From: Geitlerinema sp. PCC 7407
Lineage (GTDB): Bacteria > Cyanobacteriota > Cyanobacteriia > PCC-7407
Direction of reading: 5' to 3'
Assembly: GCF_000317045.1 (NCBI RefSeq)
Contig: NC_019703.1
Location: 484,501-548,500 of the forward strand
Length of the DNA: 64,000 nucleotides
A program made the position numbers and the translations under genes. Below, piece by piece: positions 36,501 to 55,564 of the stretch; the first letter of the stretch is position 1, and each line of letters begins with the position of its first letter. The notes under the pieces were generated by a model. The model was not told where the DNA came from. It saw nothing but the letters and a program-made list of their open reading frames with translations, and searched no databases.

Positions 36501-39500
36501 TGAGATCACGCTGACCGAGGAGCGCACCAGGGAGCCATCGACATCGGTGTCATTGGCCAGCACATTGATCGACACCAGGGTGTCTTCGTTGGTAGTGGCT
36601 CTGTCGCCCAGGATGCGCGGGGCATCGTTGACGCCGTTGACCGTGATCAAGACCGTGGCCGGAGCCGAGGTTGCGCCGGAGTTGTCTCGCACGGTGTAGG
36701 TGAAGGAGTCCACCCCGAAGAAGTCGGAGTTGGGTCTGTAGGTGGCGACGCCCGTCAACCGGTTGATCAGCACGCTGCCGTTGCTGGGGCGGCTGACCAG
36801 GGTGAGGGACGAGCGAATGAGCGAACCGTCGACGTCGGTGTCATTGGTGATGATGTTGACGCTGCCGACGGTGTCTTCATCGATCACCAGGGAGTCGTTG
36901 ACGGCGAAGGGCGCGTCATTGACGTTGTTGACCGTGACGAACACGGTGGCGGGCTGGGCCTCGGAGCCGGTTTCGTCAAAGACGGTGTAGGTAAAGGAGT
37001 CAACGCCGAAGAAGTCGGAGTTGGGGTTGTAGGTGACAACGCCGGTTTCGAGGTCGACGGTGACGCTGCCGTTGCTCGGAGCGCTGACAACGCTGAGGGT
37101 TTCCTGAAGAATCAGGTCGCCGTCGACGTCGGTGTCATTGGCCAGCACGTTCAGGGAGACGGCAGTTTCCTCGTCGGTGCTGATGGCGTCGTTGACGGCG
37201 GTGGGCGGATCGCTGACCGGGTTGACCGTGACGAAGACCGTCGCGGGGGTTGAGGTCGCGCCGTTGCCGTCGGCCACGGTGTAGGTGAAGGAGTCTACCC
37301 CAAAGAAGTCATCGTCGGGGGTGTAGGTGATCTCGCCGGTTTCGGTGTTGACGGTGGCTGAGCCGCTGCTGCCCTGGGAGGCGATCGCCACAGAGCTGGG
37401 CAAGATGGCGTCGCCGGCGTCGATGTCGGTGTCGTTGGCGAGCACGTTGATGGCGATCGCCGAATCCTCGTCGGTGCTGATGGCGTCATTGGTGGCGACG
37501 GGGGCATCGTTGACCCCATTCACCGTCACAAAGACCGTGGCCACGCTGGAGCTAGCGCCGTCCGCATCGACCACCACGTAGGTGAAGCTGTCAATACCGT
37601 TGAAGTCGGCGTCGGGGGTGTACACCACCCGATTGGGATCCGTGGCGTCAATCTCGACCGATCCCTGGGTGGGATCAGCCACCAGTTCGACCGTCAGATC
37701 GCCGATCGCGTTATCGACGTCCGAGTCGTTCGCCAAGACATTGATCGCAATCTGGCCGTCTTCATTCACCGTGGCGGTGTCGTCTGTTGCCACGGGGGCA
37801 TCGTTGACGGGGTTGACCGTGACGGTGACCGTCGTTGGAGCGGTGGTTGCGCCGCTGTCGTCGGCCACGGTGTAGGTGAAGGAGTCCACCCCAAAGAAGT
37901 CACTGTCGGGGGTGTAAATCACCGCGCCGGACTCATCGATGCTGACGCTGCCGCTGGTGGGGCCAGTGACCACCGCAACGGTGCTGGCATCCAGGGAGCC
38001 GTCGATGTCGGTGTCGTTGGCGATCACATCCAGAGTGAGGATGCCATCCTCGTCGACCGAAGCGCTGTCGGCCACGCCGAGAGGCGCATCGTTGACGGCG
38101 TTGACGGTGACCGTGACCACTGCTGGCGTCGAGGTTGCTCCTTCGCCATCCACCAGGGTGTAGGTAAAGGAGTCCACGCCATTGAAGTCACTGTTGGGCG
38201 TGTAGGTCACGACGCCGTTGGCGTCCACCGTGGCGCTGCCGTTGGTGGGCGCCGTCACCACCACGCTGCCAGGATTGAGGGTGCCGTCGACATCGGTGTC
38301 GTTGGCGACGACATTGAAGGTCAGAGCGGTGTCTTCGTTGGTGCTGACGCTGTCGGCGATCGCCCGAGGCGCGTCATTCACCGGACTCACCGTCACCGTC
38401 ACCGTCGTGGGCGCGCTGACGCCGCCGTCATTGTCCTCCACCGTATAGGTAAAGGAATCCACCCCGTTAAAGTCGCTATTCGGGGTATAGACGAGCGTCC
38501 CGTCGGGATTCACGCTGACGCTGCCGTTGGTGGACTGCTCCACCGCCACGCTGCCCGGCACCAAGTTGCCATCAATGTCGGTGTCATTCACCAACACATT
38601 GAGGGTGACCGCGGTATCTTCGCTGGTGCTGCCCGTATCCGCCACGCCCGTTGGCACATCGTTGACATCATTGACCGTCACCGTCACCACGGCCGGCGCG
38701 GAAGGGACGCCGAGGTTGTCCGTGATCGTGTAGGTAAAGGAGTCCACGCCGTTGAAGTTACTGGCGGGGCGATAAACGACCTGGCCGCTGAAGGGGTCGT
38801 AGAAGGCGGTGCCGTTGCCCGGCTGAGAGGCAATGGTAATCGACGTGCGATTGACCGTGCCGTCGACGTCCGAGTCGTTGGCCAAGACATTCAGGGATAC
38901 GGCGGCGTCTTCGTTGGTGCTGACGCTGTCGGCTCCCGCCACCGGCGCATCGTTCACCGGCGCCACGGTGACAAACACCGTCGCGGGGGTCGAGGTTGCG
39001 CCCGCGTCGTCCTCGACGGTGTAAGTGAAGGAGTCCACCCCGAAGAAGTTGCTGTTGGGGGTGTAGACCACCTGACCGGTAATCGGGCTCGTCAGCACAG
39101 AGCCATTGCTCGGCCCGGTGACCACCGTCAGCGTCGCCGGATCGATCTGCCCATCGATGTCGGTGTCGTTGGCCAGGACGTTCACCGTGACGGCGGCTTC
39201 TTCCTGGGTCGTGATGCCGTCATTGATCACCACCGGCGCATCGTTAACATTGCCGACGGTCACCAGCACGGTGGCGACGTCTGTGCCGCCGCGTCCGTTA
39301 TTGATCGTGTAGGTAAAAGAATCGACCCCGGCAAAGTTGCTGTTGGGTCGATAGACCAGGGTTTGGCCGTTGTTGATGCTGCGGACGCTGCCTCGGCCCC
39401 CTTGGCTAAAGGTGCTGATGGTCAGGCTGCTGCCGTCGCCCGCATCGTCATTGCTAAACAGCTCGCTGCCGACGATGGTCAGGGCGGTGTCTTCGACGGT

Positions 39501-41783
39501 GCTAAAGGCATCGTCATTGGCGATCGCCGGGTCCTCCACCGCGTTCACCGTCACAAAGACCGTGGCCGTGGTCAGATTGCCCTGCTGATCTGAGATCGTG
39601 TAGGTAAAGCTGTCGATCCCGTTGAAGTCTTCTGCCGGGGTGTACTGCAAGAAGTCTCCCAGGCCCTCGAGGCTGCCCCGGCCCGGCTGGGTAAAGCTGT
39701 CGAGGAAGACATTGCCGTCCTCGTCGCTGTCGTTGCTCAGGAGACCGTTGACGGCGATGCTGAGGGCGGTGTCTTCGTTGGTGGAGACGCGATCGTTGCC
39801 AGCCACCGGCAGATCTTCCACGCTGGACACCGTGATAAAGACCGTCGCGGTATCGCTGCCGCCCCGGCCGTCGCTCACGGTATAGGTGAAGCTGTCCACC
39901 CCGTTAAAATTGCGGCTGGGCTGGTAGGTCAGGGTGCCGTTGAGGTTGTTGCGCAGGGTGCCGCGGGCGGGCTGGGTAAAGCCGTTGAGATTGAGGACAT
40001 CCCCGTCGCCGTCACTGTCATTGGCAAACAGCCCCGAGGCCAAGTTGATGGTCAGGCCGGTGTCTTCGCGGGTGCTGAGGCCGTCGCTGCCCGCGATGGG
40101 AACGTCGTTGACCCCGGTGACCGTGACGAAGACTCGACCGACGGTGGTGCCGCCTTGGCCGTCGCGCACCGTATAGGTAAAGGAGTCGACCCCGGCAAAG
40201 TTGCTGTCGGGGGTGTAGGTGTAGGAGCCGTCGCCGTTGCCCTGGAGGTCACCGTTCGCGGGCTGGCCAAAGTTGCTGTTGAGCAGGCTGAGGGTGCCGC
40301 CGTCGATGTCGGTGTCGTTGCCGAGCAGGTCGTCAGCGGTGAAGTTGAGGAGACCGTCTTCGCTGATGCTGAAGCGATCGCTCACGGCCACCGGCACGTC
40401 GTTGACCGACTGCACCGTGATTAGCACCGTGCCGGCCGAGGTGCCGCCGTTGCCGTCCGAGACCGTGTAGGTAAAGCTATCGACCCCGTTGAAGTTGCTG
40501 TTGGGGGTGTAGACAAAGCGGTTGCCGCTCAGGGCTGTGAGGGTGCCGTTGCGGGGGGTGCTGTTTTCGAGGAGGGTGATCGGCTCGCCGTCGATGTCGG
40601 TGTCGTTGGCCAGCACATTCCCCAGGGTGACGGCCCGATCTTCGAGGGTCGTGGCGCTGTCGGGCCGGGCCAGGGGAGGGGCGTCGTTGACAGCGGTCAC
40701 AGTGACATTCACCGTGGCGGTGGAGGTGCCGCCGCGGCCATCGACGACGGTGTAGGTGAAGCGATCGGTGCCAAAAAAGTCGCTGGCTGGGGTATAAACG
40801 AAGCCGTTGCCAACCTGGGTGACGGTGCCGCGACTGCCCTGGCCAAAGCGCAAGATCGTGAGGCGATCGCCATCGGCATCAGTGTCGTTGGCCAGCACGT
40901 TGCTAAGGGTGACGGCCCGATCTTCAAGGGTCGAAGCCGCGTCATTGCGGGCGATCGGCACGTCATTGACGGCGCGCACGGTCACAAACACGTTGGCCGC
41001 GCTGGTGCCGCCAAAGCCATCGCGCACCGTGTAGGTGAAGCTGTCAACGCCGTTGCGGTTGGCGCTGGGCCGGTAGATAAACTGGCCGTTGGTGCTGCTG
41101 GTGACTGACCCAAAGCGGCCGGAGGTAAACCGGATCACCGAGAGCGTGTCTCTGTCCGGGTCGCGGTCATTGGCCAAGACATTGGCCAGGGCGACGGCGA
41201 CATCTTCGTTGGTGGCGATCGCATCATTGGCCAGGACCGGCGCGCGGTTGATGCCCGAGCGACCCTCCGCCTGCCCCTGAATCACGAAGTGCTCAAAACC
41301 TGTCCGGAAGGCCCCAGCGTTCACCGCCTGCAAGACATCCGGGTTGTGAACGAGGTAAAAGCCCTCGTTGAAAATGGCGCTGGGCATGCGCCGCTCAAAC
41401 TGGCCTGCCAGAAAGAAGTGCTCGAAGCCGCTTGAGAACGTGCCCGCGCGCACCGCTGCGGCAATGTCGGGGTTGTTGGTGAGATAGTAGCTCTCGCTGA
41501 ACTGAGCAATGGGCGATCGACCCTCAAACTGCCCCGCTGCGATGTAGTGGTCGTAGGCGCTGGAAACAAGCTTGTTACGAATGGCCGCCGCAACGTCAGG
41601 GTTGCTTGACAAGTAGTAGCTCGTATTGAAATAGGCGCTGGGATTGCGCCCTTCAAGCTTGCCGAGGGCCTGGAAGTGAGCAAACCCACTGGTGAAGACA
41701 CCGTTGCGGACAGCGGTTGCGACGTCGGGGTTTGTCGCTAAATAATACCGCTCGTCAAAGAGGGACTGGAGAGACAGACTCAT
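33570..41783 (-). CDS. Giant cadherin-like repeat protein (2737 aa)
   Basis: The N-terminus (residues 7-178) is four exact 43-residue repeats of the form YYLxxNPDVAxAV...HFxxxGQxEGRxPS. I then count 25 tandem cadherin-like/VCBS-type repeats of about 95 residues (about 180-2555). Each has NEDTAVxxNVLANDTDVDG, with aspartates placed to bind calcium as in cadherins, then YTPxSNFxGVDSFTYTV and ATVFVTVxxVNDAP. The end (about 2580-2737) is a PPC-like beta-sandwich with DTELFLFNSAGALLAENDD, GTYVIGVG and YTLHIS. There is no Sec signal peptide. Such proteins are generally cell-surface or secreted adhesins; the export route is not visible here. It is a tandem paralogue of the next gene upstream. Confidence 0.92.
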   Translation of the reverse strand: MSLSLQSLFDERYYLATNPDVATAVRNGVFTSGFAHFQALGKLEGRNPSAYFNTSYYLSSNPDVAAAIRNKLVSSAYDHYIAAGQFEGRSPIAQFSESYYLTNNPDIAAAVRAGTFSSGFEHFFLAGQFERRMPSAIFNEGFYLVHNPDVLQAVNAGAFRTGFEHFVIQGQAEGRSGINRAPVLANDAIATNEDVAVALANVLANDRDPDRDTLSVIRFTSGRFGSVTSSTNGQFIYRPSANRNGVDSFTYTVRDGFGGTSAANVFVTVRAVNDVPIARNDAASTLEDRAVTLSNVLANDTDADGDRLTILRFGQGSRGTVTQVGNGFVYTPASDFFGTDRFTYTVVDGRGGTSTATVNVTVTAVNDAPPLARPDSATTLEDRAVTLGNVLANDTDIDGEPITLLENSTPRNGTLTALSGNRFVYTPNSNFNGVDSFTYTVSDGNGGTSAGTVLITVQSVNDVPVAVSDRFSISEDGLLNFTADDLLGNDTDIDGGTLSLLNSNFGQPANGDLQGNGDGSYTYTPDSNFAGVDSFTYTVRDGQGGTTVGRVFVTVTGVNDVPIAGSDGLSTREDTGLTINLASGLFANDSDGDGDVLNLNGFTQPARGTLRNNLNGTLTYQPSRNFNGVDSFTYTVSDGRGGSDTATVFITVSSVEDLPVAGNDRVSTNEDTALSIAVNGLLSNDSDEDGNVFLDSFTQPGRGSLEGLGDFLQYTPAEDFNGIDSFTYTISDQQGNLTTATVFVTVNAVEDPAIANDDAFSTVEDTALTIVGSELFSNDDAGDGSSLTISTFSQGGRGSVRSINNGQTLVYRPNSNFAGVDSFTYTINNGRGGTDVATVLVTVGNVNDAPVVINDGITTQEEAAVTVNVLANDTDIDGQIDPATLTVVTGPSNGSVLTSPITGQVVYTPNSNFFGVDSFTYTVEDDAGATSTPATVFVTVAPVNDAPVAGADSVSTNEDAAVSLNVLANDSDVDGTVNRTSITIASQPGNGTAFYDPFSGQVVYRPASNFNGVDSFTYTITDNLGVPSAPAVVTVTVNDVNDVPTGVADTGSTSEDTAVTLNVLVNDTDIDGNLVPGSVAVEQSTNGSVSVNPDGTLVYTPNSDFNGVDSFTYTVEDNDGGVSAPTTVTVTVSPVNDAPRAIADSVSTNEDTALTFNVVANDTDVDGTLNPGSVVVTAPTNGSATVDANGVVTYTPNSDFNGVDSFTYTLVDGEGATSTPAVVTVTVNAVNDAPLGVADSASVDEDGILTLDVIANDTDIDGSLDASTVAVVTGPTSGSVSIDESGAVIYTPDSDFFGVDSFTYTVADDSGATTAPTTVTVTVNPVNDAPVATDDTATVNEDGQIAINVLANDSDVDNAIGDLTVELVADPTQGSVEIDATDPNRVVYTPDADFNGIDSFTYVVVDADGASSSVATVFVTVNGVNDAPVATNDAISTDEDSAIAINVLANDTDIDAGDAILPSSVAIASQGSSGSATVNTETGEITYTPDDDFFGVDSFTYTVADGNGATSTPATVFVTVNPVSDPPTAVNDAISTDEETAVSLNVLANDTDVDGDLILQETLSVVSAPSNGSVTVDLETGVVTYNPNSDFFGVDSFTYTVFDETGSEAQPATVFVTVNNVNDAPFAVNDSLVIDEDTVGSVNIITNDTDVDGSLIRSSLTLVSRPSNGSVLINRLTGVATYRPNSDFFGVDSFTYTVRDNSGATSAPATVLITVNGVNDAPRILGDRATTNEDTLVSINVLANDTDVDGSLVRSSVSVISGPSSGSATVGPNGVVSYTPGTDFFGVDSFTYTVTDNSGATATPATVFVTVAPVNDAPRPVADTASTEEDSAIAINVLANDTDVDDSLVPGSVSIASEAGNGSVSVNPETGVVTYTPDTDFFGVDSFTYTVTDDGGATSAPTTVTVTVSPVNDAPRLVGDAVSTDEDTAITFSAIANDTDVDGTLDATTVALVSEAGNGSVTIDDTTGDITYTPDANFFGVDSFTYTVADNDGVTGAPATVFVTVNDINDAPVSTDDFGTTDEDTVVKIDLLANDSDLDGTLNPASISILSGPSSGSFSLDPSSGVVTYTPDTNFFGVDSFTYTVADDDGDTSAPATVLVTVLSVNDPAFAVNDSATTNEDTAVSIDLLANDFDDDGNLLPASVVVVSEAANGSVSIDAATGAATYTPDSDFFGVDSFTYQVSSDDGSTSNLATVTITVLSVNDAPIAANDTASTLEDSAVTINVAANDTDVDGRVLPTTVAIVSNGTSGTATVNPNTGEVTYTPGSNFFGVDSFTYTVGDTDGATAAPATVFVTVAPVNDAPVGVADTTITDEDTAVTIDILGNDTDIDSAIAPDSVVITTSPTNGSVTLDASGAAVYTPNSNFNGVDSFVYTVADEEGAVSGPIKVTVTVRDVNDPPIAGNDRATVAEDSFVQINVLANDTDVDGDLRNPSVVTGPSNGAVNLTGTGTFIYTPSANFNGVDSFTYTVSDNDGGTAVATVTVTVTPVNDAPTAVGDRFTVAQGTPLTISSAQLLSNDTDIDGDTTLNVVNVSTPSRGTLTQQGGSYVYTPGANFSGNDSFTYTVADGNGGSATATVNLVVAQSVPEAQFTSTANANIFRSTEIPHATVQATGDGSFDYYVFEVTSPGVAYFDIDFGVTSGGVGDVDTELFLFNSAGALLAENDDSLTSNGAGGSTKSDDAFIEYTFTEAGTYVIGVGAFDSSVQPGSGIITGSAPAPGSTYTLHISLENGVVPPLP

Positions 41784-42049: not shown

Positions 42050-45000
42050 CTACTTCGGAGCCGAGATGTGGAGCGTGTAGAGATCGCCCGGATCGGGAGC
42101 GTCCTCCGAGAGGATGCCGCGCAGTCCGTCGATGGTCGTGACGCCCGAAGCGGACTCGCCCACCCCAACGATGTAAGTTCCTGCTGCCAGATTTCTGGAG
42201 ATGAACGCATCGTTTGTGGTGTTGCTGCCCCCTGCGCCCAGCCCAATAGACGCTGTGTCGTTTTGGGTGATGAGCTGCATGTTGCTATCGAACAGGAACA
42301 GCCGGGTGTCAATGTTGCTAGCGGCCCCTGTGTCAATGTCGAGGGTGATCGTACCTCCTGTGGTGGTGAAGCTGTAGTAGTCAAAGGTTCCGTTGCCGCT
42401 GGCATTGATCGTGGCGTGGGGCACCGTCGTCGCATTCAGGATGTCAGGATTATCGCCAGTGTTAAACAGCGAGTTGACATCCTGGGCGACGGCCAAGAAA
42501 ACCGTTGCCGTCGACGTGCCGCCATTGCCGTCAGTCACCGTGTAGGTGAAGCTGTCGTTGCCAGTGAAGGGCGGGAACCCAGGCGTTGGCCGGTAAACGA
42601 AGCTGTTGCCGCTTCGCGTCACGCTGCCATTCGAGGCTCCACCGAAGCTATTAGTGATCGTCAGGACATCGGTCGGGTCATCATCGAAGTCATTGAGCAG
42701 CAGATCAGCATCCGTGATGGTGACTGAGCCGCTGTTGACCAAGAAGAGATCGTCGAGAGCCGTCGGATCACTGTTGACGGAGTTCACCGTGACGAAGACC
42801 GTCGCCGTTGCAGTGCCGCCCGGGTTGCCGTCACTGACCAGGTACGTGAAGCTATCGACCCCGTTAAAGATTGGGTTCGGGGTGTAGGTCACGGTGCCAT
42901 CGCCGTTGACGCCAACCGCGCCGTTGGTCGGTCCAGCCACGAAGCTGGTAACCGCTAGCGGGCCGCCATCCACGTCGGTGTCGTTGCCCAGGATGTCCAG
43001 GGTGATGGCGATACCTTCGTCTGTAGAGGCTGCATCGTTGACGGCGATCGGCAGGTCGTTGATTGAGCGGACGCTCACCACGACCGAGGCCGTGTCGCTG
43101 CTTCCCTGACCATCGGTGATGGTGTAGGTGAAGGTGTCGAGCCCGAAGAAGTTGCTGGCGCCTGTGTAAGTAAAGGTGCCATCCGGGTTCATGGACACGG
43201 TGCCGCCCTGGCTGCTCACGTTGTCGAAGCCAATCACCACGATGGGATTACCGTCGACGTCGGTGTCGTTGGCCAGGACGTTGCCGCCGGTGAGGGCGGT
43301 GTCTTCGTCAACGCTGAACTGGTCGTCGACCGCCAGAGGCGCGTCGTTGACGGGGGTGACGGTGATGGTGGCGATCGCCGTGTCGGTGCCGCCTTGGCCG
43401 TCACTGATGACGTAGCTGAAGCTATCGACCCCGGTGAAGTTCGACACCGGCGTGTAGATCAGGCGCTGGCTGACTGGGTCTCGGCTGACCTGGCCGTTGG
43501 TGGGCTGGGCAAAGCTAAAGACCGTCAGCGGGTTGCCGTCGACGTCAGAGTCGTTGGCCAGCACGTTGAGGGCGACGCTGGTGGCGTCTTCCGCAATCGT
43601 GAAGTTGTCATCGGTGGCCACGGGGGCGTCATTGACGCCGCCCACGGTTACGAAGACGGTGGCGACATTCGACGTCGCGCCGTCGGTGTCTCGGACCGTG
43701 TAGGTGAAGGAGTCCACGCCAGAGAAGTTGGAGTTTGGCGTGTAGGTTAGGCTGCCCGTACCGGTGACTTGGCCGTTGGCAGGGCCGCTAACCACCACCA
43801 CAGAGTTGGGGTTGAGACCCGGGGCCGGCTGGCTGTCGACATCGGAGTCGTTGGCCAGCACGTTGATGACGACGCTGCCGTCTTCCTGGAGGGAAGCGGT
43901 GTCGTTGGTGGCGATCGGCGCATCGTTCACCTGACCGACGGTGACGATCACCAGGGTCGGCGCAGAGGTTGCACCGCTGTTATCGGCGACGGTGTAGGTG
44001 AAGCTGTCGAGGCCAAAGCCGCCCTGGGTGCCAGGGAAGTTGGCGTTGGGGGTGTAGAAGACGACGCCGTTGCTGATGCTGACGGTGCCGTTGCCAGGAT
44101 TGGAGGCGATCGCCAGAGAAGCGGTGTTAATGGAGCCATCCGTGTCGCTGTCATTCGCCAGCACATTGATGCTCACCGCCGTATCTTCCTGGGTCGATGC
44201 GTTGTCTGCCCCTGTGACCGGTCCGTCATTGACGTTGGTCACCGTGACAAACACCGTCGCGGGATTGGAGGTCGCGCCGTCGTCATCGCGCACCGTATAG
44301 GTGAAGCTGTCCACTCCAAAGAAGTTGGAGTTCGGTCTGTAAATCACCTGGCCCGCTGCGTTGACCGTTGTCGAGCCATTGCTGGGCGCGCTGGCCACCG
44401 TCACGCTCGTTGGGTTGAGGGTGCCGTCGACATCGGAGTCATTGGCCAAGACATTGATGCTGAGGACGCCGTCTTCGACCATGGACGCGCTGTCGTTGAC
44501 CGTGATCGGGGCGTCATTGACATCCGTGATCGAGACCACCACCGTGGCGACGTTGGAAGTCGCGCCGGCGTTGTCGCTCACCACGTAGGTGAAGGTGTCG
44601 AAGCCAGAGAAGTTGGAGTTGGGCGTGTACTGAATGCCGCCTGTGACCGCGTTGATCGTGGCGCTGCCGTTGGTGGGGCCGCTGACCAGAGAAACGCTGC
44701 CACGGACCAGGGTGCCGTCAATGTCGCTGTCGTTGGCCAGGACATTGAAGATCGTGCTGGACTCCTCTGTGATCGTGAACCGGTCGTTGGTGGCGATCGG
44801 CGGATCGTTGACCTCGCCGACGGTGATAAAGACCGTCGCCGCGTTGGACGTCGAGCCCGCGTTGTCGCGCACCGTGTAGGTGAAGCTGTCGATGCCAGCA
44901 AAGTTGGAGTTGGGGGTGTAGACCACTTCTCCAAAGCCATTGATGGTCGCAGAGCCTTGGCTGGGACCCGTCGTCACCGTCACCGATGCCTCGTTGAGGT

Positions 45001-48000
45001 TGCCATCAATGTCGGTGTCGTTGGCCAGGACGCTGATGGTCGCGATGCGATCTTCGAGGGTGCTGACGCTGTCGTTGACGGCAATGGGCAGGTCGTTGAC
45101 GCTGTTGACCGTCACGAAGACCACGCCCGGGGCCGAGACGGCTCCGTCGTCGTCCGTCACCGTGTAGGTGAAGGAGTCAATGCCGAAGAAGTTGGATCTC
45201 GGTCGATAGACCACCTGACCGCTGAAGCCATCATAGAAGGCGGTGCCGTTGCCCGGTTGAGAGGCGATCGCCACCGAGGTCGGATTCACCGTGCCATCGG
45301 TATCCGTGTCATTGGCCACCACATTGATGCTGAGGGCCGTATCCTCATTCACGCTGCGCAGGTCATTGACCGCCAGCGGAGGACTGTTGACATCGGAGAT
45401 GGTGATGAAGACCGTCGCCGTATTCGACGTCAGCCCTGCATTGTCGCGCACCACGTAGGTGAAGCTGTCAATGCCGTTGGCCCCGCCTGTCGGCGTGTAG
45501 ATGACCTGACCGGTCACCGGGCTGATCTGCGTCGTGCCCTTGGTCGGAGCACCAGAGACCACCACCGTCGCCGGGTTGATGCTGCCGTCGACATCGGAGT
45601 CATTGGCCAGCACATTGACCAGGATCGAGGTGTTCTCGCTGGTTGAGGCTGCATCATTGCCCGCGATCGGCGCATCGTTCACCTGACCAATGGTCAGCGT
45701 CACCGTCCCCGTGGAACTGCCGCCTGCACCATCGCTGATGCTGTAGGTGAAGCTGTCAAGGCCGAAGGCCGCCGTACCCGGGAAGTTGGTGGTGGGGCGA
45801 TAGGTGTAGGTGCCGTTGCCGTTGTCCACCAAGGTGCCCTGGGTGGGTCCGTTGACGATGCCGGTGAAGAAGCGGGTCGTGCCGTCCACATCGGTATCGT
45901 TGCTCAGCAAGGAGGTGGTCAGCACGTTGAAGGTCGTGTCCTCCGCCAAGCTGAAGCGATCGGCCACGGCCACCGGCGCGTCGTTCACCTGGGTCACGGT
46001 CACAAACGCCGTTGCGGTGCTCGAGCGTCCCGTCGGGTCTTGGACCGTATAGGTGAAGCTGTCCACCCCAGAGGCTGCCGTACCCGGGAAGTTAGTGGTG
46101 GGTCGGTAGACGAAGCTGTCGCCCGAGCGGGTGATTGTGCCACCCAGGCTCGTGGTGCTCTGGAAGCCGCTGATGCTCAGGGCTTCACCGTCGGGATCGG
46201 TGTCGTTGGCCAGGAGCTGGCTGCCCGTAATGGTCAGCAGCGTATCCTCGACCATGGTGAACTGGTCGTTGGCGGCGATCGGCGGGTCGTTACTGACCGC
46301 ATTCACCGTGACAAAGACCGTTGCCGCATTCGAAGAGGCGCCATTGTTGTCCACCGCGAAATAGGTGAAGCTATCCACCCCGGAGAAGTTGGAGTTGGGG
46401 GTGTAAACCGCTTGCTGGACCCCGTTGAAGCTCACCGTTCCGTTGCTCGCCTGGGAGACCAGCGACGCAATGGGCAGGGTGCCATCGACGTCGGTGTCAT
46501 TGCCTAGGACGCTAATGACAAGGCTGGTGTCCTCGTTGGTGGAGGCCCGATCGCTGACGGCGATCGGCGCATCGTTGACCCGACCAACGGTGACAATGAC
46601 CGTTGCCGGCAGGCCGGTTGCCCCGTTGTTGTCGCTCACCGTGTAGGTGAAGGTGTCCGTTGCCGAGGCCGCGGTGCGCGGGAACTCAGCATTGGGCGTG
46701 TACACCAGCACGCCATCGGCGCCGATGGAGATGCTGCCGTCGGTGGGGCCGCTCACGATGCTCACAGAGCCACGGTTGAGGGTGCCGTCGACATCGGAGT
46801 CATTGGCCAACACGTTCAGGGAGAGAGCGGTCTCTTCTTGGGTGGAGCCGCCGTCGTTGCCTAGGACGGGCCGGTCGTTCACTTCGGCCACGGTGACGAA
46901 GACGGTGGCCGGATTGGAGGCCGAGCCGCTGGCGTCGCGCACTGTGTAGGTGAAGCTGTCAACGCCGGAGAAGTTGGTGCCGGGGGTGTAAATCACCTGG
47001 CCAGCGGCGTTGACGGAGGTGGAACCGTTGCTCGGACCGCTGCCGATGCTGACAGTGGCAGGGTTGATCGAGTTGTCGATGTCCGAATCGTTGGCCAGCA
47101 CGTTGATGCTGAGGGCCACGTCTTCGTTGGTCGATGCCGTGTCGTTGGTGGCGATCGGCGAATCGTTGATATCGCTGACCGTAACCACGACCGTGGCGAC
47201 GTTGGAGCTAGCGCCCGCTTGGTCAGAGACCACGTAGGTAAAGGTATCGGTGCCCGAGAAGTTGGAGTTCGGGGTGTAGAGGATACCGCCCGTGGTGCTG
47301 TTGATGCTGATGCTGCCGTTGGCAGGACCGGTGACGATGGCGACGCTGCCTCGGTTGAGGGTGCCGTCGACATCGGAGTCGTTGGCCAGGACATTGATGG
47401 CGATCGCCCGATCTTCCTGGGTCGAAGCCGTATCGTTGCCCGCGATCGGCGCGTCGTTGACGTCGTTGACTGTGATAAACACCGTCGCCGTATTCGACAC
47501 GCTGCCCGCGTTGTCCGTCACCGTGTAGGTGAAGCTATCAACCCCCGCAAAGTTGGACGTCGGCGTGTAAACCGCCTGGCCAAAGGCATCGAGGGTAACC
47601 GTCCCGCTGCTGGGCGGCGCGGTGAACACCACGCTGGTCTCATTGAGATCCCCATCCACATCGGTGTCGTTGCCCAGGATGTCCAGAGTGGCCACTTGGT
47701 CCTCGACCACGCTGAACTGGTCATTCACCGCGACAGGGATGTCGTTCACGCTAGTGACCGACACCGTGACTACGGCGGGGGCCGAGACCGTACCGTCGTC
47801 GTCCGTCACCGTGTAGGTGAAGCTATCAATCCCAAAGAAATTGGAAGCGGGTCGATAGATGACCTGGCCGGTGAAGGGGTCAAAGAAGGCCGTGCCTCTA
47901 CCGGGCTGGCTGGCGATCGCAATCGAGCCTGGGTCGATAGTGCCGTCAATGTCGCTGTCATTCGCCAGCACATTGATCGTGGCAGCGCTATCTTCCAGAA

Positions 48001-51000
48001 TCGTCACGCGATCGGCCGTTGCCGTCGGCGCGTCGTTGACATCCGCGATCGTCACAAACACCGTCGCCGAAGACGTACCGCCGTCATTGTCAGCCACCGT
48101 GTAGGTGAAGCTATCAATGCCGTTCAGGCCGCCCGTGGGCGTATAAATCACCTGACCCGTCAGCGGACTCACCTGCACCGTACCCTTGCCAGGATTCACC
48201 GACACCACGACCGAGCCGCGGTTGAGGGTGCCGTCGACATCCGAGTCATTGGCCAAGACATTGACCGTGACCCGTTGATTTTCCTGGGTATTCGCCGTGT
48301 CGTTCGTCGCGAAGGGCAAGTCATTCACTTCCCCAATCGTGATCGTGACCGTGGCCGTCGCTGTGCCGCCCTGACCGTCATTCACGATGTAGGTGAAGCT
48401 ATCGAGGCCCACCGACGCCGTACCCGGGAAGTTGGTGGTGGGCGTGTAGGTGTAGGTTCCGTCGCCGTTATCGGACAGGGTGCCGTTGACCGGCGCCGTT
48501 GCGATGCCCGTCACCAGCAGCGTGCCGCCATCGGCATCGGAGTCATTGAGCAGCAGGTTCGCCGCATTGATCGTCAGCGGCGTATCTTCAGCCGTGCTGA
48601 GCTGGTCTGCCCCGGCGGTCGGCGCGTCGTTGACCTGACCCACCGTCACAAAGACGGTGCCCACACTCGTGCGGTTGGTCGAGTCGCGCAGCGTATAGGT
48701 GAAGCTGTCAATGCCGGACGGATTATTCGCAGGGAAGTTTGCCGGCGGGCGATAGACAAAGGTGTCGCCACTGCGCGTGATGGTGCCGCCGTTGGCCGAC
48801 GCGCTCTGGAAGCCGCTGATGCTGATCGAATCCCCATTGGGAATATCGACGTCTGTATCATTGGCCAGCAGCTGCGTGCCGGTCAGGGTTAGGCCGACAT
48901 CCTCTGCTGTAGAGAAGTTGTCGTTGCCCGCGATCGGCGCGTCATCGTTGCGCGAAGCCACCGTGACAAACACCGTCGCCGGATTCGAAACGCTGCCGTC
49001 ATCGTCCTGCACCGTGTAGGTGAAAGAATCCACCCCAAAGGTGTTGGAGTTGGGCGTGTAGAGAATGCTACCGCTCACCACAGAGACCGTGCCCCGCGTC
49101 GGGTTACCCACGACGGAGACCGTGGCCGGGTTGAGGGTGCCATCGAGATCGGTGTCATTTTGCAAGACATTGATCGACAGGCCGCCCGGCACATCCTCAA
49201 AGGTGGTGACGCTGTCATTGACCGCGATCGGGGCGTCATTGATGTCGGTAACCGTGACGAAGACCGTCGCCACGTTGGAAACCGAGCCCGAGTTGTCGCG
49301 CACCGTGTAGGTGAAGGAATCTACGCCCGAGAAGTTCGTGTTGGGGCGGTAGGTGACCTGGCCCGTGCTGCCGTTGAGGGAGACGCTGCCGTTGCCCGCC
49401 GCCTGGACAACCTGAATGCTGCCCGGGGCGATCGACCCGTCGATGTCGGAGTCGTTGGCGATTAGGTTGATGCTGGTGACGCCATCTTCAAAGACACCCG
49501 CCGTGTCATTGACTGCGATCGGAGCATCGTTGACCGGATTGACCGTCACAAAGACCGTCGCCGGATTCGAGACCGAGCCACTGCCATCAGCCACCGTGTA
49601 GGTGAAAGAATCCACGCCCGAGAAGTTGCTGTTGGGCGTGTAGAGAACCGTGCCCGCGCTGATGCTGGTGGCCCCTTGACCCGGACCCGTAACGACTACC
49701 AAGCTGGTTGGATTGAGCGTCCCGTCAATGTCTGAGTCATTGATCAAGACCGGAATCGCAATGCTGGTGTCTTCGTTCAGGCTAGCGGTGTCATTGGTAG
49801 CGATCGGCGGATCGTTGACATTGCTCACCGTCACAAACACGGTCGCCGTGTTCGAGAGGCCATTCTGGCGATCGCGCACCGTATAGGTGAAGCTATCGAC
49901 CCCCGAGAAGTCCGAGGTCGGACGGTACACCACCTGACCCAGGAAAGCGTCATAGGCCGCCGTTCCGCGAGCTGCCCCCGTCACGATGGTCACGCTGCCC
50001 GCATCCAGGGTGCCATCCACATCGCTGTCGTTGGCCAGCACATTGATGCTGATCGCCCGATCCTCTTGGGTGCTTGCCGTGTCATTGGTGGCGATCGGCG
50101 CATCGTTCACGCTGCTGATCGTCACAAACACCGTCGCCGGATTCGACACGCTGCCCGCGTCATCCGCCACCGTGTAAGTAAAGCTATCGACCCCAAAGAA
50201 ATTGCTGTTGGGCCGATAGAGGACGCGGCCATCAGCACCCACCGTGGCAGTACCATTGCCCGGACCCGTGCCGATGGCGACGCTGCCCGTTTCGAGGGTG
50301 CCGTCCGTATCGCTGTCATTGGCCAGCACCGAAATCAGGATGCTGGTGTCTTCGTTCGTCGAAACCCCGTCGTTGGTCGCGATCGGAATCGAATTGACAT
50401 TGTTGACCGTGACGAAGACCGTCCCCACATTGGAGCTGGCCCCTTCGTTGTCCTGCACGGTATAGGTAAAGCTATCCACCCCAACAAAATTGGATCTGGG
50501 GCGATAGCTGACATTACTGGTCAGCGGATCAATCGTGACCGTGCCACCCGAAGGTCCAGTCACGATCGACAGCGTGGCCGGGCGCAGATTCCCATCCACA
50601 TCCGAGTCATTCGCCAAAACATTCAGCGTAATGGGAATGTTCTTGTCCGTGGTTGACAGGTCATTGTTGGCAACCGGCGGGTCATTGACGTTGTTGACCG
50701 TCACAAAGACCGTCGCGACATTCGACAGGCTGCCGCCGCTGTCGCGCACCGTGTAGGTAAAGCTGTCAATGCCCGAGAAGCCTGCAACCGTCGGCGTATA
50801 GACCACCTCATCGGTTACCGGATTGAAGATGACGCTGCCGTTAGTTGGCTGACTGCCAATGACGAGAGTGTCGCGATCGATCGTGCCGTCAATGTCGCTG
50901 TCGTTTGCAAAGACACTGATTGTGACCGCTGCATCTTCGTTGGTCGTCGCAGTATCGTTTCCAGCGATCGGACGATCGTTGACTGAAACAACTGAGATGG

Positions 51001-53512
51001 TTACAACGGCCGTATCCGTCAGGCCCGTACCGTCGTTGATGGTGTAGGTAAAGCTATCGAGCCCATTAAAGTTTGCAGTGGGCGTGTAAGTATAGCTTGT
51101 GCCGTTGAAGACTAGGCGTCCCCGCGTGGGCTGCGTAAAGTCCTCCAGGAAAATCAGCGTTTCCGCGTCGCTATCGTTTGCCAGCAGGCTGTTGCGGCTA
51201 AAAGTCAGGACGCCGTCTTCTTGCACCGTCAGCCGGTCATCCCCAGCAATGGGTGCATCGTTGACGCCATCGACCGTGATGAAGACCGTTCCCGTTGCGT
51301 CGGCCGTCGCCGTGTCGTTGTCGGCAATAGTGTAGGTAAAGCTGTCAACGCCCGTGAAGTTCTGGCTAGGCGTATAGATGTACTGACTGCCGTTGAAAAC
51401 GAAGCTGCCGCCTCTACCAGTCGTGGACTGGAAGCTCGTGATTTGCAGCGCATCGCCGTCGGGGTCGGTGTCGTTGCCCAGCAGGCTGTTGCGGCTGAGG
51501 GTAATGGCGGTGTCTTCGACCGTGCTGAATCTGTCATTGACGGCGATCGGCGCGTCGGCCACCGGGCTGACGGTAACCACAACGGTGGCGCTAGCCGTTC
51601 CGCCGTCGCCATCGGCGACGGTGTAGGTGAAGCTGTCCCGACCAAAGAAGTTAGAGCGCGGGACGTAGGAGAACTGGCCGTTGCCGAGGTTCGTGATGGT
51701 GCCGCTGTTGAGGGGCGTGAAGCCAATGATGCTCAGGGAGGCGCCGCTCTCAAGGTCAGAGTCATTGGTGAGGACATTGAAGGTGATGCCTGCCGAGTCC
51801 TCTACCAAGGAAATCTGGTCATTGCCAGCAACGGGTAAGTCATTGACCGGGGTGACCGTCAGATTGACGGTAGCGGTAGCAGTGCCGCCATCGCTATCAG
51901 AGATGGTGTAGGTAAAGCTAACGGGGCCGCTAAAGTTGCTGCTCGGCCGATAAACGAACTGCCCACCGTTCTGGGTGAGGGTGCCGCTGGCGGGCGGAAT
52001 GGGGGTGAAGCCAATAACGTTGAGCGCATTGCCATCTTCAACATCGGTGTCGTTCGTGAGGACGTTGAAGGTGATACCTGCTGAGTCCTCACCGATCGTG
52101 AAAGCGTCGTTGCGGGCAATGGGCAGGTCGTTAACGTTGTTGACGGTGACAAAAACGGTGGTGGAGCTGGTGCCGCCCTCGTTGTCTTCGATGAAGTAGG
52201 TAAAACTATCAACGCCAGAGACGTTGGGGTTGGGCTGATAGGCAATTTGCCCGTTAGTGGCGTTGACGGTGGCGCTGCCGCGGGTGGGGTTGCTCAAAAG
52301 GGCAACCCGGTTGGGCACGATGGAGCCATCGGTGTCCGTGTCGTTGGCGAGGACGTTGATGGTGATCCGGGTGTCTTCGTTGGTCGAGACGCGATCGCTC
52401 ACTGCCACCGGAGAGTTGTTCACCAGGGTGACCGAGACCCGCACGGTGGCGCTAGCGGTGCCGCCGTTGCCGTCACTGACCCGATAGGTGAAGTTGTCGA
52501 TGCCGGAGAATCCGGAATTAGGCCGGTAGACGAACCCGTTGCCAACCCGCGTGATCGTGCCGCTGCTGGGGGGTGTGGTCCCCACAATGGTCAAGGGGTT
52601 GCCGTCAACGTCGGTGTCGTTGGCCAGCACGTTAGCAAGGGTGACGGCCCGATCTTCGAGGGTCGTGGCACCGTCAGCGCGGGCAATGGGTGCGTCATTG
52701 ACGGCCCGCACGGTGACGAACACTCGAGCAGTGCGGGTGCCGCCGAACCCGTCTCGCACGGTGTAGGTGAAGCTGTCTACGCCGTTGCGGTTGGTGGCAG
52801 GGTTGTAGGTGAAGCGGCCATTGCCATTGTTGACAACAGAGCCAAAGCTGCCTTGGGTGTTGCTAATGACGCTGAGTATGTCACTGTCGGGATCGCGATC
52901 GTTCGCTAGAACATTGGCGATGACGATGGAGGTGTCTTCGTTACCGGCGATCGCATCATTTGCCAGGACTGGCGCGCGGTTGATGCCCGAGCGACCCTCT
53001 GCTTGTCCTCGAATGATGAAGTGCTCAAAACCCGTCCGAAAGGCGCCAGCGTTAACGGCGTTGAGAACATCTGGGTTATGAACGAGGTAAAAGCCCTCGT
53101 TGAAGATGGTGCTGGGCATGCGCCGCTCAAACTGGCCCGCGAGGAAGAAGTGCTCGAAGCCGCTGGAGAAGGTGCCTGCGCGTACCGCATTCGCGATGTC
53201 AGTGTTGTTGGCGAGGTAGTAGCTCTCGCTGAACTGGGCAATGGGCGATCGCCCCTCAAACTGCCCCGCAACGATGTAGTGCTCGTAGGGGCTGCGAATG
53301 ACGTTTGGGAAGGCAGCCGCAATGTCTGGATTGCTCGAGAGATAGTAGGCGGTATTAAAGTAGGCGCTAGGGTTGCGCCCTTCAAATTGGCCAATTTCCT
53401 GGAAGTGAACAAACCCACTGGGGAACACCCCATTGGCAACCGCCGTGGCGACGTCAGGATTCGTCGCTAGGTAGTACCTTTCGTCGAACAAGGACTGGCG
53501 AGACAGACTCAT
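42050..53512 (-). CDS. Giant cadherin-like repeat protein (3820 aa) with higher-order repeats
   Basis: It has the same plan as its neighbour. Residues 7-177 hold four YYLxxNPDV repeats of 43, 42, 43 and 43 residues. I count 36 cadherin-like repeats (about 178-3665) with NVLANDSDVDGTL and SGVDSFTYTV cores, then a PPC-like end (about 3670-3820: NIDTRLFLFDSN, GTYIVGVGE, LYTLHIS). Within the array two kinds alternate: pairs with LLxNDxDxDG and runs of seven with INVLANDSDxDG. This nine-domain set recurs at about 2.64 kb. No Sec signal peptide is seen. The role is presumably a calcium-dependent surface or secreted adhesin. The frame is intact over 11.4 kb, which argues for selection. Confidence 0.92.
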   Translation of the reverse strand: MSLSRQSLFDERYYLATNPDVATAVANGVFPSGFVHFQEIGQFEGRNPSAYFNTAYYLSSNPDIAAAFPNVIRSPYEHYIVAGQFEGRSPIAQFSESYYLANNTDIANAVRAGTFSSGFEHFFLAGQFERRMPSTIFNEGFYLVHNPDVLNAVNAGAFRTGFEHFIIRGQAEGRSGINRAPVLANDAIAGNEDTSIVIANVLANDRDPDSDILSVISNTQGSFGSVVNNGNGRFTYNPATNRNGVDSFTYTVRDGFGGTRTARVFVTVRAVNDAPIARADGATTLEDRAVTLANVLANDTDVDGNPLTIVGTTPPSSGTITRVGNGFVYRPNSGFSGIDNFTYRVSDGNGGTASATVRVSVTLVNNSPVAVSDRVSTNEDTRITINVLANDTDTDGSIVPNRVALLSNPTRGSATVNATNGQIAYQPNPNVSGVDSFTYFIEDNEGGTSSTTVFVTVNNVNDLPIARNDAFTIGEDSAGITFNVLTNDTDVEDGNALNVIGFTPIPPASGTLTQNGGQFVYRPSSNFSGPVSFTYTISDSDGGTATATVNLTVTPVNDLPVAGNDQISLVEDSAGITFNVLTNDSDLESGASLSIIGFTPLNSGTITNLGNGQFSYVPRSNFFGRDSFTYTVADGDGGTASATVVVTVSPVADAPIAVNDRFSTVEDTAITLSRNSLLGNDTDPDGDALQITSFQSTTGRGGSFVFNGSQYIYTPSQNFTGVDSFTYTIADNDTATADATGTVFITVDGVNDAPIAGDDRLTVQEDGVLTFSRNSLLANDSDAETLIFLEDFTQPTRGRLVFNGTSYTYTPTANFNGLDSFTYTINDGTGLTDTAVVTISVVSVNDRPIAGNDTATTNEDAAVTISVFANDSDIDGTIDRDTLVIGSQPTNGSVIFNPVTDEVVYTPTVAGFSGIDSFTYTVRDSGGSLSNVATVFVTVNNVNDPPVANNDLSTTDKNIPITLNVLANDSDVDGNLRPATLSIVTGPSGGTVTIDPLTSNVSYRPRSNFVGVDSFTYTVQDNEGASSNVGTVFVTVNNVNSIPIATNDGVSTNEDTSILISVLANDSDTDGTLETGSVAIGTGPGNGTATVGADGRVLYRPNSNFFGVDSFTYTVADDAGSVSNPATVFVTISSVNDAPIATNDTASTQEDRAISINVLANDSDVDGTLDAGSVTIVTGAARGTAAYDAFLGQVVYRPTSDFSGVDSFTYTVRDRQNGLSNTATVFVTVSNVNDPPIATNDTASLNEDTSIAIPVLINDSDIDGTLNPTSLVVVTGPGQGATSISAGTVLYTPNSNFSGVDSFTYTVADGSGSVSNPATVFVTVNPVNDAPIAVNDTAGVFEDGVTSINLIANDSDIDGSIAPGSIQVVQAAGNGSVSLNGSTGQVTYRPNTNFSGVDSFTYTVRDNSGSVSNVATVFVTVTDINDAPIAVNDSVTTFEDVPGGLSINVLQNDTDLDGTLNPATVSVVGNPTRGTVSVVSGSILYTPNSNTFGVDSFTYTVQDDDGSVSNPATVFVTVASRNDDAPIAGNDNFSTAEDVGLTLTGTQLLANDTDVDIPNGDSISISGFQSASANGGTITRSGDTFVYRPPANFPANNPSGIDSFTYTLRDSTNRTSVGTVFVTVGQVNDAPTAGADQLSTAEDTPLTINAANLLLNDSDADGGTLLVTGIATAPVNGTLSDNGDGTYTYTPTTNFPGTASVGLDSFTYIVNDGQGGTATATVTITIGEVNDLPFATNDTANTQENQRVTVNVLANDSDVDGTLNRGSVVVSVNPGKGTVQVSPLTGQVIYTPTGGLNGIDSFTYTVADNDGGTSSATVFVTIADVNDAPTATADRVTILEDSAATINVLANDSDIDGTIDPGSIAIASQPGRGTAFFDPFTGQVIYRPASNFFGIDSFTYTVTDDDGTVSAPAVVTVSVTSVNDIPVAVNDQFSVVEDQVATLDILGNDTDVDGDLNETSVVFTAPPSSGTVTLDAFGQAVYTPTSNFAGVDSFTYTVTDNAGSVSNTATVFITVNDVNDAPIAGNDTASTQEDRAIAINVLANDSDVDGTLNRGSVAIVTGPANGSISINSTTGGILYTPNSNFSGTDTFTYVVSDQAGASSNVATVVVTVSDINDSPIATNDTASTNEDVALSINVLANDSDIDNSINPATVSIGSGPSNGSTSVNAAGQVIYTPGTNFSGVDSFTYTVRDASGSASNPATVFVTVAEVNDRPVLGNDGGSTQEETALSLNVLANDSDVDGTLNRGSVSIVSGPTDGSISIGADGVLVYTPNAEFPRTAASATDTFTYTVSDNNGATGLPATVIVTVGRVNDAPIAVSDRASTNEDTSLVISVLGNDTDVDGTLPIASLVSQASNGTVSFNGVQQAVYTPNSNFSGVDSFTYFAVDNNGASSNAATVFVTVNAVSNDPPIAANDQFTMVEDTLLTITGSQLLANDTDPDGEALSISGFQSTTSLGGTITRSGDSFVYRPTTNFPGTAASGVDSFTYTVQDPTGRSSTATAFVTVTQVNDAPVAVADRFSLAEDTTFNVLTTSLLSNDTDVDGTTRFFTGIVNGPTQGTLVDNGNGTYTYRPTTNFPGTAAFGLDSFTYSISDGAGGSSTGTVTLTIGQVNDAPIAGNDAASTSENTSILVNVLANDSDVDGSINPATVVVSGAPTKGTTQISPVTGQVIYTPTGGANGIDSFTYVVRDNAGLTSNTATVFITISDVNSPPLAVNDLRSVNEDTALSINVVANDTDTDGTVNPTSVAIASQPGNGTAFYDGFSGQVVYRPRSNFFGIDSFTYTVTDDDGAVSAPGVVFVTVNSVNDLPIAVNDSVSTLEDRIATISVLANDTDIDGNLNEASVTVTTGPSQGSATINGFGEVVYTPNSNFAGIDSFTYTVRDNAGSTSNAATVFITVGEVNDPPIATNDRFTITEESSTIFNVLANDSDIDGTLVRGSVSLVSGPTNGSATINAVTGGIQYTPNSNFSGFDTFTYVVSDNAGATSNVATVVVSITDVNDAPITVNDSASMVEDGVLSINVLANDSDVDGTLNPTSVTVASAPSNGSTTVNAAGQVIYRPNSNFFGVDSFTYTVRDDDGATSNPATVFVTVTNVNDGPVTGADNASTQEDTAVSINVLANDSDTDGSINTASLAIASNPGNGTVSISNGVVFYTPNANFPGTQGGFGLDSFTYTVADNSGATSAPTLVIVTVGQVNDAPIATNDTASLQEDGSVVINVLANDSDVDSQPAPGLNPNSVVVVSGPANGQVTGTGSLTYTPNSNFSGVDSFTYTVRDTDGATSNVATVFVTVGGVNDAPVATDDNFTIAEDATSVALNVLANDSDVDGNPLTVFSFAQPTNGQVSRDPVSQRLIYTPVSNFTGVDSFSYVISDGQGGTDTAIATITVTPVNDAPLAVDDQFSVDEDTALTGGNVLANDTDVDGNPIVVIGFDNVSSQGGTVSMNPDGTFTYTGASNFFGLDTFTYTITDGQGSSDTASVVVSVRSINDLPIAVNDAASTDEGIAITLDILGNDTDVDGGPLAVTSFVAGPTNGAVGVNGDGTVTYTPNPIFNGVDSFTYLVSDGNPGGTATATVFVTVNSVNSDPTALDDLFLVNSGSVTITDADLLLNDFDDDPTDVLTITNSFGGASNGSVTRSGNSFVYRPTPGFPPFTGNDSFTYTVTDGNGGTSTATVFLAVAQDVNSLFNTGDNPDILNATTVPHATINASGNGTFDYYSFTTTGGTITLDIDTGAASNIDTRLFLFDSNMQLITQNDTASIGLGAGGSNTTNDAFISRNLAAGTYIVGVGESASGVTTIDGLRGILSEDAPDPGDLYTLHISAPK
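43513..51433 (-). repeat. Nine-domain higher-order repeat, period about 2.64 kb
   Basis: Equivalent codons of the FQSTTG/FQSASA/FQSTTS/FAQPTN segment lie at 51433, 48811, 46165 and 43513, giving offsets of 2622, 2646 and 2652 bp. A second marker, GLDSFTY or GLDTFTY, lies at 51058, 48403, 45757 and 43138. All offsets are multiples of three and equal nine domains. Confidence 0.8.
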
Positions 53513-53800: not shown

Positions 53801-54703
53801 GTGTTACAGCGTCTAACAAAATTGAATTATCTAATGCAAGAGACGCTGTTGGGACTGCGGCGTGGGGGCTGGATGAATTGGGCCGCCATTAGTACGGTGA
53901 CGGTCCTGCTGTTTTTGTTTGGGGTCAACCTTCAGGCCTCCTGGCAGCTAGAGCGCCTGCTAAACCAGTTTGGGAGCCAGCTAGAGGTGTCGGTGTACCT
54001 CCAGGAGGCGGCGGAGCCGACGGCGATCCAGGCGTCGGTGGCGGCTTTGCCAGAGGTGGCGTCGGTGGCGATCGTCCCTCGCGAGGAGGCTTGGGCCTCC
54101 CTGGTCAAGGATTTGGGCGTGGCAGACATTGCGGCGGCGACTGACCAGCTTAATGGCAATCCCCTGGTGGACGAGCTGCGGGTGCAGGTGCGAGAGGCGG
54201 AGGCTGTGGCGTCTCTGGCCCAGCGCCTCGAGAAACTGCCGGGGGTGGACACGGTCCAGTACCTGGCGGAGGCAGTGCAGCGCCTAGAGCAGCTCAATCG
54301 GGGATTTCGGTGGCTGAGTGTGTCGGTGACGACCCTGCTGACCCTGACGGCGATCGCCGTGATTACGACCACGATTCGCCTGATCGTGATGGCCCGTCGC
54401 CGCGAAATCGAGGTGATGCAGCTGGTGGGAGCGACCACGGGCTGGATTTATTTCCCGTTTATTTTGCAGGGCTTGGCCTTTGGCGTGGCGGGAGCGGCGA
54501 TCGCCTGGGGCCTGTTGGGGGCGGTGCAGCAGTTTTTGCGTAGTTTGCTCACCCAGCAGGCGGACTTTATCCAGTTCCTGGCCCAGGGGCTGGCGCTCAC
54601 GGCGGCCGAGCAAACCCTACTAACGCTGATTCTGCTTGGCTTTGGTGGGTCTGTTGGCCTGCTGGGGAGTTTGTTGGCAGTGCGGCGGTTTGCAGTGCGT
54701 TAG
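53801..54703 (+). CDS. ftsX: Cell-division ABC permease FtsX
   Basis: The 300-residue protein has a GTG start with GGAGGTG upstream. It has one N-terminal transmembrane helix (about 28-46), an extracytoplasmic domain (about 50-165, with QLEVSVYLQEAAEP and ELRVQVREAEAV), then three helices (about 170-195, 220-250, 270-295) with RREIEVMQLVGAT, the typical FtsX motif. FtsX pairs with the ATPase FtsE to control septal peptidoglycan hydrolases. No ftsE gene is next to it, as is common in cyanobacteria. Confidence 0.92.
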   Translation: MLQRLTKLNYLMQETLLGLRRGGWMNWAAISTVTVLLFLFGVNLQASWQLERLLNQFGSQLEVSVYLQEAAEPTAIQASVAALPEVASVAIVPREEAWASLVKDLGVADIAAATDQLNGNPLVDELRVQVREAEAVASLAQRLEKLPGVDTVQYLAEAVQRLEQLNRGFRWLSVSVTTLLTLTAIAVITTTIRLIVMARRREIEVMQLVGATTGWIYFPFILQGLAFGVAGAAIAWGLLGAVQQFLRSLLTQQADFIQFLAQGLALTAAEQTLLTLILLGFGGSVGLLGSLLAVRRFAVR

Positions 54704-54718: not shown

Positions 54719-55564
54719 ATGAAATCACAGTGGGATGCACTGCTGGAAAATTTGGGCGCGTGGGAGGGCTCCTTTACGCGGCTCTCGCCCCAGGGAGAGG
54801 CGATCGCCGATATGCCCACCCAGGTCTCCCTTGAGGCCATCAACGATCGCCAAACCATTCGCCAGACGATCCGCCGATATGCCCCGGATGCCCAAGACCA
54901 AGTAACCCCGCAAGATCAGGTCCTAGAGTACAGCTCCCTGGGGCGGGGAGTGCTGCTGTTTGAGAATGGCGCGTTTTCCCAAGGCTCGACCCAGCTGGGG
55001 CCCTTCTCGGAATTTGGGGCGGAGTTTGGCTTCATTGCAGGCGATCGCCGTTTGCGCCTGGTGCCCCTCTACGATCGCCAAAGCCAGCTGTCTCAGATCA
55101 CCTTGATCCGGGAAAAGCGCTCAGGCACCGACGCGCCCGACCGGCCGCCGCTGACCCTGGAGGCCCTGCTCGGAACCTGGGAAGGAGAAGCGACGACCCT
55201 CTATCCCGACTGGCGATCGCCGGACAGCGCACCTACGCAGCTCACGCTGATCCAGTTGGCGGGCGATCGCCTCCAGCAAACCTTGACCTTTGGCGCTCCG
55301 CCGACTACCTTGACCTCCACCGCCGAGATTCGCGGCCAGAGCCTCCTGTTTAGCCAGGGCAGCCAATCGGTCCAGGTGCTCCTGCTGCCCGACGGGGCCT
55401 CAGTCACAGCTCCCACCCAGCTTCAGATGGGCAAGCCCTGCTTTCTCGAAGCGGGCTGGCTCCTCGCCCCCGACCTGCGCCAGCGCATGATCCGCGCCTA
55501 CGACGAAAAAGGCGGCTGGGCAAGCCTCACCCTCGTCACCGAGCGCAAAGTCGCTGAGCCCTGA
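54719..55564 (+). CDS. DUF3598 family protein
   Basis: The 281-residue protein looks like a tandem of two beta-barrel halves: LGAWEGSFTRLSPQG near the start and LLGTWEGEATTLYPDW at about residue 150. This two-part pattern belongs to the cyanobacterial and plastid DUF3598 proteins, which have a calycin-like fold. Function is unknown to me. It lies 15 bp after ftsX on the same strand and ends 12 bp before the convergent aat gene. Confidence 0.8.
   Translation: MKSQWDALLENLGAWEGSFTRLSPQGEAIADMPTQVSLEAINDRQTIRQTIRRYAPDAQDQVTPQDQVLEYSSLGRGVLLFENGAFSQGSTQLGPFSEFGAEFGFIAGDRRLRLVPLYDRQSQLSQITLIREKRSGTDAPDRPPLTLEALLGTWEGEATTLYPDWRSPDSAPTQLTLIQLAGDRLQQTLTFGAPPTTLTSTAEIRGQSLLFSQGSQSVQVLLLPDGASVTAPTQLQMGKPCFLEAGWLLAPDLRQRMIRAYDEKGGWASLTLVTERKVAEP

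Follow-up and report, generated by a model that had tools for sequence, protein, structure and literature searches.

The 64,000-nucleotide stretch of Geitlerinema sp. PCC 7407 DNA analyzed here (the window) carries a giant gene for a protein, A, that is made up largely of similar domains, and the question raised by this locus is how such an array reached its present length. A sequence-only reading had proposed growth by duplication of a nine-domain block of about 2.64 kb, present in three to four copies and comparable to higher-order repeats in satellite DNA.

The open frame at 42050-53512 on the minus strand, taken from the list of open reading frames and the sequence, encodes a protein of 3820 aa. 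All 36 of its array domains, which like those of its paralog B are ~96 aa each, match both Big_9 (PF17963, Pfam) and tandem-95 (NF012211, NCBIfam). Protein A is a tandem-95 repeat protein based on its score of 2872.9 bits over 36 stretches, the curated cut-off of NF012211 being 90. An AF2 model of three domains, A15-A17, gave a chain of beta-sandwiches (pLDDT 86.6) whose best PDB matches in Foldseek were mostly cadherin and protocadherin tandems, with E down to 1e-13, and the RTX adhesin extender 6xi1 was among the top five. The predicted fold of these domains is thus that of a cadherin-like beta-sandwich stalk. Based on domain content, protein A is probably surface-exposed, and it would act as a stalk and a putative secreted adhesin. 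The array is preceded by four helical repeats (motif YYL..NPDV..AV..G.F..G..H....G..E.R) that AF2 models as all-helical (pLDDT 94, pTM 0.87). This N-terminal repeat had no match among Pfam or NCBIfam families or, up to an E of 10, among PDB folds; its relatives are found in several cyanobacteria, Halomonas, Acetobacteraceae and Acuticoccus. The features of the locus are collected in Table 1.

Table 1. Features of protein A and its surroundings (positions in the window; domains numbered from the N-terminus).
Feature	Position	Strand	Evidence or remark
Protein A, giant tandem-95/Big_9 (cadherin-like) repeat protein	42050..53512	-	ORF; PF17963 x36; NF012211 x36
N-terminal region of A, four ~45-aa helical "YYL..NPDV..AV" repeats	52973..53512	-	sequence; AF2
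Flanking domains A01-A05, outside the higher-order repeat	51551..52972	-	domain matrix, register tests, tree
A06-A14, probable older, eroded copy: LL-type pair A06-A07 and seven NVLAND-type domains	48938..51550	-	tree, register p, block matches
Block copy A15-A23, 2655 bp	46283..48937	-	off-diagonal, domain matrix, tree, windows
A15-A22, one-to-one partners of A24-A31	46568-48937	-	
A15-A16 with FP insertion, first copy	48317..48937	-	also A22 at 46568-46870
Block copy A24-A32, 2658 bp	43625..46282	-	off-diagonal, domain matrix, tree, windows
A24-A31, partners of A15-A22	43919-46282	-	
A24-A25 with FP insertion, nine domains on	45671..46282	-	also A31 at 43919-44221
Flanking domains A33-A36	42476..43624	-	lag-9, window and block comparisons
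C-terminal DVUA0089-family/PPC-like domain of A	42050..42475	-	NF038127; PF04151
Protein B, tandem paralog, 2737 aa, 25 domains	33570..41783	-	same kind of N- and C-terminal regions as A
FtsX-like gene, divergent neighbor	53801..54703	+	65-67% aa beside orthologous giant in G024, G039, G053
DUF3598/BFA1-C gene	54719..55564	+	kept with the locus, 59-61% aa

Comparison of the array with itself revealed a period of nine domains. Autocorrelation over the whole protein and gene peaked at 883 aa and 2649 bp, and the expected 2.6-kb off-diagonal was present: the best self-blastn match of gene A lies at a lag of 2655 bp and spans 5750 bp at 63.4% identity (2028 bits, the next match having 831). Self-blastp of protein A, at the settings applied, gave no off-diagonal segments. 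In a 36 × 36 domain matrix, A15-A22 pair with A24-A31 at 61-70% amino acid identity. All eight domains from A15 to A22 are closer to the domain nine positions on than to the adjacent one (mean identity 0.661 versus 0.496), the lag being constant at nine throughout the run; outside the block the two averages are nearly equal (0.507 for n+9 and 0.509 for n+1). The mean z at lag 9 was 1.52, a lag-9 score reached by none of 20,000 shuffles of domain order, and a shuffle test that took the best of any lag from 1 to 24 gave p = 0.0002. Allowing lags up to n-3 gives p 0.033, a noisy value as few pairs are left at such lags, and we relied on the bounded-lag tests. With 48-aa windows, the best partner lay at +9 for 67 of 98 windows in A15-A22 and at -9 for 61 of 99 in A24-A31.

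The ML domain tree, which rests on 97 columns and in which many forks stay open, agreed in large part with the expectation that domain n would be closest to n+9. Supported pairs were A15/A24, A16/A25, A17/A26, A19/A28, A20/A29 and A22/A31, while A18/A27 formed a clade with domain B09 of the paralog and A21/A30 did not resolve as a pair. Shared indels follow the same spacing. A loop insertion of ~5 residues beginning with FP was found only in A15, A16, A22, A24, A25, A31 and the terminal A36, so that the pattern {15, 16, 22} recurs as {24, 25, 31}, and the linker end is one residue longer in both A14 and A23. The ninth domains, A14, A23 and A32, were not each other's nearest in the domain matrix. 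At this divergence, a test of A23 as a chimera, its N-terminal part like A32 and its C-terminal part like A14, lacked the resolution to show such a pattern. There is thus one clear two-copy duplication, consisting of eight paired domains and an unpaired ninth.

The proposed number of three to four copies was borne out in part. The originally described arrangement, a pair of LLxND domains and then seven NVLAND-like ones, is found in A06-A14 as well as in the two clear copies, and A06-A14 is probably an older, eroded third copy. This is because, in the tree, A06 joins A15/A24 (support 94/88) and A08 joins A17/A26 (89/83), and because the best matches of A06-A14 in the array are the in-register blocks (z 1.16 and 1.01), with shifts by one reaching 0.9. 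The register of A06-A14 is weak, at p = 0.003 for all nine domains and 0.18 when the seven NVLAND-type domains are taken by themselves. A33-A36 were also considered as a fourth copy. They gave no lag-9 signal (mean z 0.24), a lag of -9 was absent from the most frequent best-partner lags in 48-aa windows of this region, and they resemble neighboring domains instead; a fourth copy therefore falls. The two marker segments said to recur in each copy were only partly recovered: FQS is present three times only, the fourth proposed site, at 43513, reading FSFAQPTNG, and GLD[ST]FTY is present five times, one of them out of register in A31. That the marker offsets are multiples of three is trivial because all of them lie inside one reading frame.

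The duplication is ancient, as substitutions at synonymous sites have nearly reached saturation: pS between the two clear copies was 0.555 (dS ~1.0) and dN 0.28, and four-fold sites with shared codon boxes were identical at 149 of 283 (0.527), compared with 0.475 for all other domain pairs. Paired domains are 65-72% identical in DNA, no whole domain pair in A exceeds 72%, and the highest identity between any two A domains is 0.71. What remains visible of the repeat is amino acid conservation specific to each block position. The likeness to satellite DNA is therefore loose: the high DNA identity between units that marks such repeats is absent from A, recent homogenization of the block was not seen, and Tandem Repeats Finder, with a longest period of 500, found no array within gene A. 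Its sole array in 33000-54000 was at 35900-36454, in two adjacent B domains (period 291, 75% matches). With DNA identity between copies no higher than 72% in any domain, length change in nines, which the sequence-only reading had envisaged, looks inactive. The relatives returned by our searches belong to the same class only, none being at genus, family or order level, and a scan of genome contigs gave distant N-terminal matches only; no relative that preserves the state before duplication came up, and the direction and timing of the duplication were not observed.

Gene B lies directly downstream of A and encodes, as judged by sequence, four ~45-aa N-terminal repeats and a C-terminal DVUA0089/PPC-like region. 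Lag tests found no nine-domain repeat in protein B. A01 pairs with B01 and A02 with B02-B03 by domain comparison and tree, and B06-B09 align in order with A24-A27 (z 2.09) and A15-A18 (z 1.71). Based on this ordered match, the first part of the block is probably older than the split of A and B or was exchanged between the two genes. The first 540 nt of the N-terminal regions (52973-53512 and 41241-41783) are 82% identical in the window.

FtsX-like and DUF3598 genes were also found upstream of a giant tandem-95 gene in three other genomes, G024, G039 and G053, each with a second giant downstream. All three belong to one other family, f25. The A-type proteins have 28, 28 and 26 domains, respectively, and the B-type proteins 16, 14 and 14, so that A-type G053 has two domains fewer than A-type G024 and B-type G024 two more than the other B-type proteins. 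G024 is one contig, whereas G039 and G053 are draft assemblies, and collapse of near-identical units of ~555 bp is thus possible in their counts. Among the three loci the outer domains correspond one to one and the central run repeats with a two-domain unit; in the core of A-type G024, DNA identity from n to n+2 is 0.72-1.00 and from n to n+1 about 0.62. These syntenic orthologs show length steps set by the repeat unit, here of two domains. The internal domains differ between the window and f25, the last domain, A36, being the sole clear pair (z 6.9). The interiors of this locus turn over, and its ends and neighbor genes stay. The N-terminal regions of the A- and B-type genes (first 540 nt) are 99% identical within G024, 92% within G039 and 74% within G053. 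Those of the A-type genes of G024 and G039 are 73% identical, yet the 400 bp upstream are 97% identical, and this contrast suggests gene conversion between the tandem giant paralogs.

To place these units among other tandem-95 arrays, we analyzed seven plasmid-borne proteins chosen from the top matches of one search, a small sample that gives no frequency estimate. A two-domain unit was found in Priestia (52 domains) and Rhizobium (12 domains, p 0.053) and a three-domain unit in Variovorax (121 domains, where another peak lies near 20); the other four had no multi-domain unit. The small arrays of other cyanobacteria (5-9 domains) gave no usable lag statistic. The Variovorax paradoxus protein is a 16,239-aa ORF on a plasmid (L075, 114-48833, minus strand), and its offsets near 20 domains on a three-domain unit are perhaps a nested repeat. 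The 5288-aa Priestia megaterium protein (plasmid L071, 9763-25629, plus strand), which has relatives in many strains, shows an ABAB alternation with mean identities of 0.77 at lag 2 and 0.56 at lag 1. In the A-type arrays and Priestia all adjacent pairs stay below 70% identity, and 21-58% of lag-2 pairs are at ≥70% in f25 A-type arrays and Priestia. Homologous domains that sit side by side tend to differ in sequence, a divergence believed to reduce misfolding (PMC4660218). It is conceivable, if rather doubtful, that amplification by several domains at once (2, 3 or ~9) is favored because it keeps near-identical domains apart and so avoids misfolding between neighbors, the block in A being an ancient outcome whose positions keep distinct roles. 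However, 31-40% of adjacent pairs are at ≥70% identity in f25 B-type arrays and Rhizobium, and neighbor dissimilarity is thus no rule.

Overall, we read protein A as a long cadherin-like stalk that was extended when a segment some nine domains long (~2.65 kb) was duplicated in tandem and in frame, a reading to which we give a probability of roughly 0.85. Growth by such a block, as first proposed, holds for one event based on the off-diagonal, the tree and the shared indels, and probably for an older one, but not for four copies. The simplest route would be an unequal crossover in which a domain recombined with a similar one nine positions away. One block duplication gave A15-A23 and A24-A32, and A06-A14 probably goes back to an earlier one. 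The missing pairing of the ninth domain (A14/A23/A32) counts against a duplication, although recombination breakpoints within two similar domains at that distance should yield eight complete pairs plus a chimera, consistent with an unpaired ninth. The f25 locus grew recently by a two-domain unit, its length changing in that unit. Since the unit differs between the two families, that of nine domains most likely reflects where recombination happened to fall in this one lineage, and not a conserved design.

Three other explanations were weighed against this duplication. We consider it improbable that selection alone keeps the period, with nine positions each having its own ligand or contact in the manner of a titin-like ruler. 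Such selection would explain why amino acid similarity at +9 persists despite near-saturated synonymous sites (dN ~0.28 against dS ~1.0) and why an LL-pair marks every ninth step three times, but eight domain subtypes would need a like order twice without common descent, the FP insertion would have to arise at three matching positions, and orthologs at the same locus have no period of nine. Selection may follow duplication of a block but does not replace it. Less probable still is that the lag-9 signal only reflects LL-type pairs recurring among NVLAND-type domains, two domain classes without any block. The third-copy signal does come mostly from the LL-type pair, as the register p without that pair indicates; within the main pair (A15-A31), however, the NVLAND-type domains A17-A22 mostly prefer n+9 too, with supported tree pairs. 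Least credible of all are four block copies still recombining in the style of a satellite higher-order repeat. LL-pairs at A06-07, A15-16 and A24-25 and a weak GLDTFTY motif in A34 would fit such copies, but A33-A36 are without in-register similarity, and the identity ceiling of whole domains and the state of four-fold sites described above speak against continuing exchange.

The growth mode favored here, block duplication, is already known for long repeat proteins, and duplicating several domains at once is a reported common mode in domain repeats (PMC1553488). Protein A adds a bacterial case with an unusually long, nine-domain unit, which among the tandem-95 (NF012211)/Big_9 (PF17963) proteins surveyed is unique to A. 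Our literature search, in which subscription journals were mostly outside coverage, returned no previous paper describing higher-order repeats in proteins of the tandem-95 type. The locus comparison shows the same giant gene pair with kept ends and neighbors and different interiors, the step being nine domains in one lineage and two in another, and the locus lets one ask what sets unit size and whether selection keeps neighbors dissimilar.

The seven-domain super-repeat of nebulin is similar in that consecutive domains were duplicated together, autocorrelation peaks at the unit size and expansion took place in mid-array (PMC1553488); A differs in its nine-domain unit, its bacterial origin and in having one clear two-copy event rather than many. 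The closest Ig-fold analogue is the A-band super-repeat of titin, with Ig-like beta-sandwiches and position-specific identity in a long super-repeat (PMC10665226), whereas A has no known filament of matching periodicity and its repeat is not kept in its orthologs. For A15-A17, the predicted fold match to the RTX adhesin extender of Aeromonas hydrophila (PDB 6xi1) has an E of 2e-12 at 24% identity, although the C-terminus of A is DVUA0089/PPC-like. Periscope proteins are likewise bacterial stalks of tandem folded domains in varying number, in which high DNA identity accompanies length change (PMC8201768). The copies in A are too diverged for the high mutual domain identity of that type (maximum 0.71), and the f25 orthologs, with two-domain units between species, fit the Periscope type better than A does.
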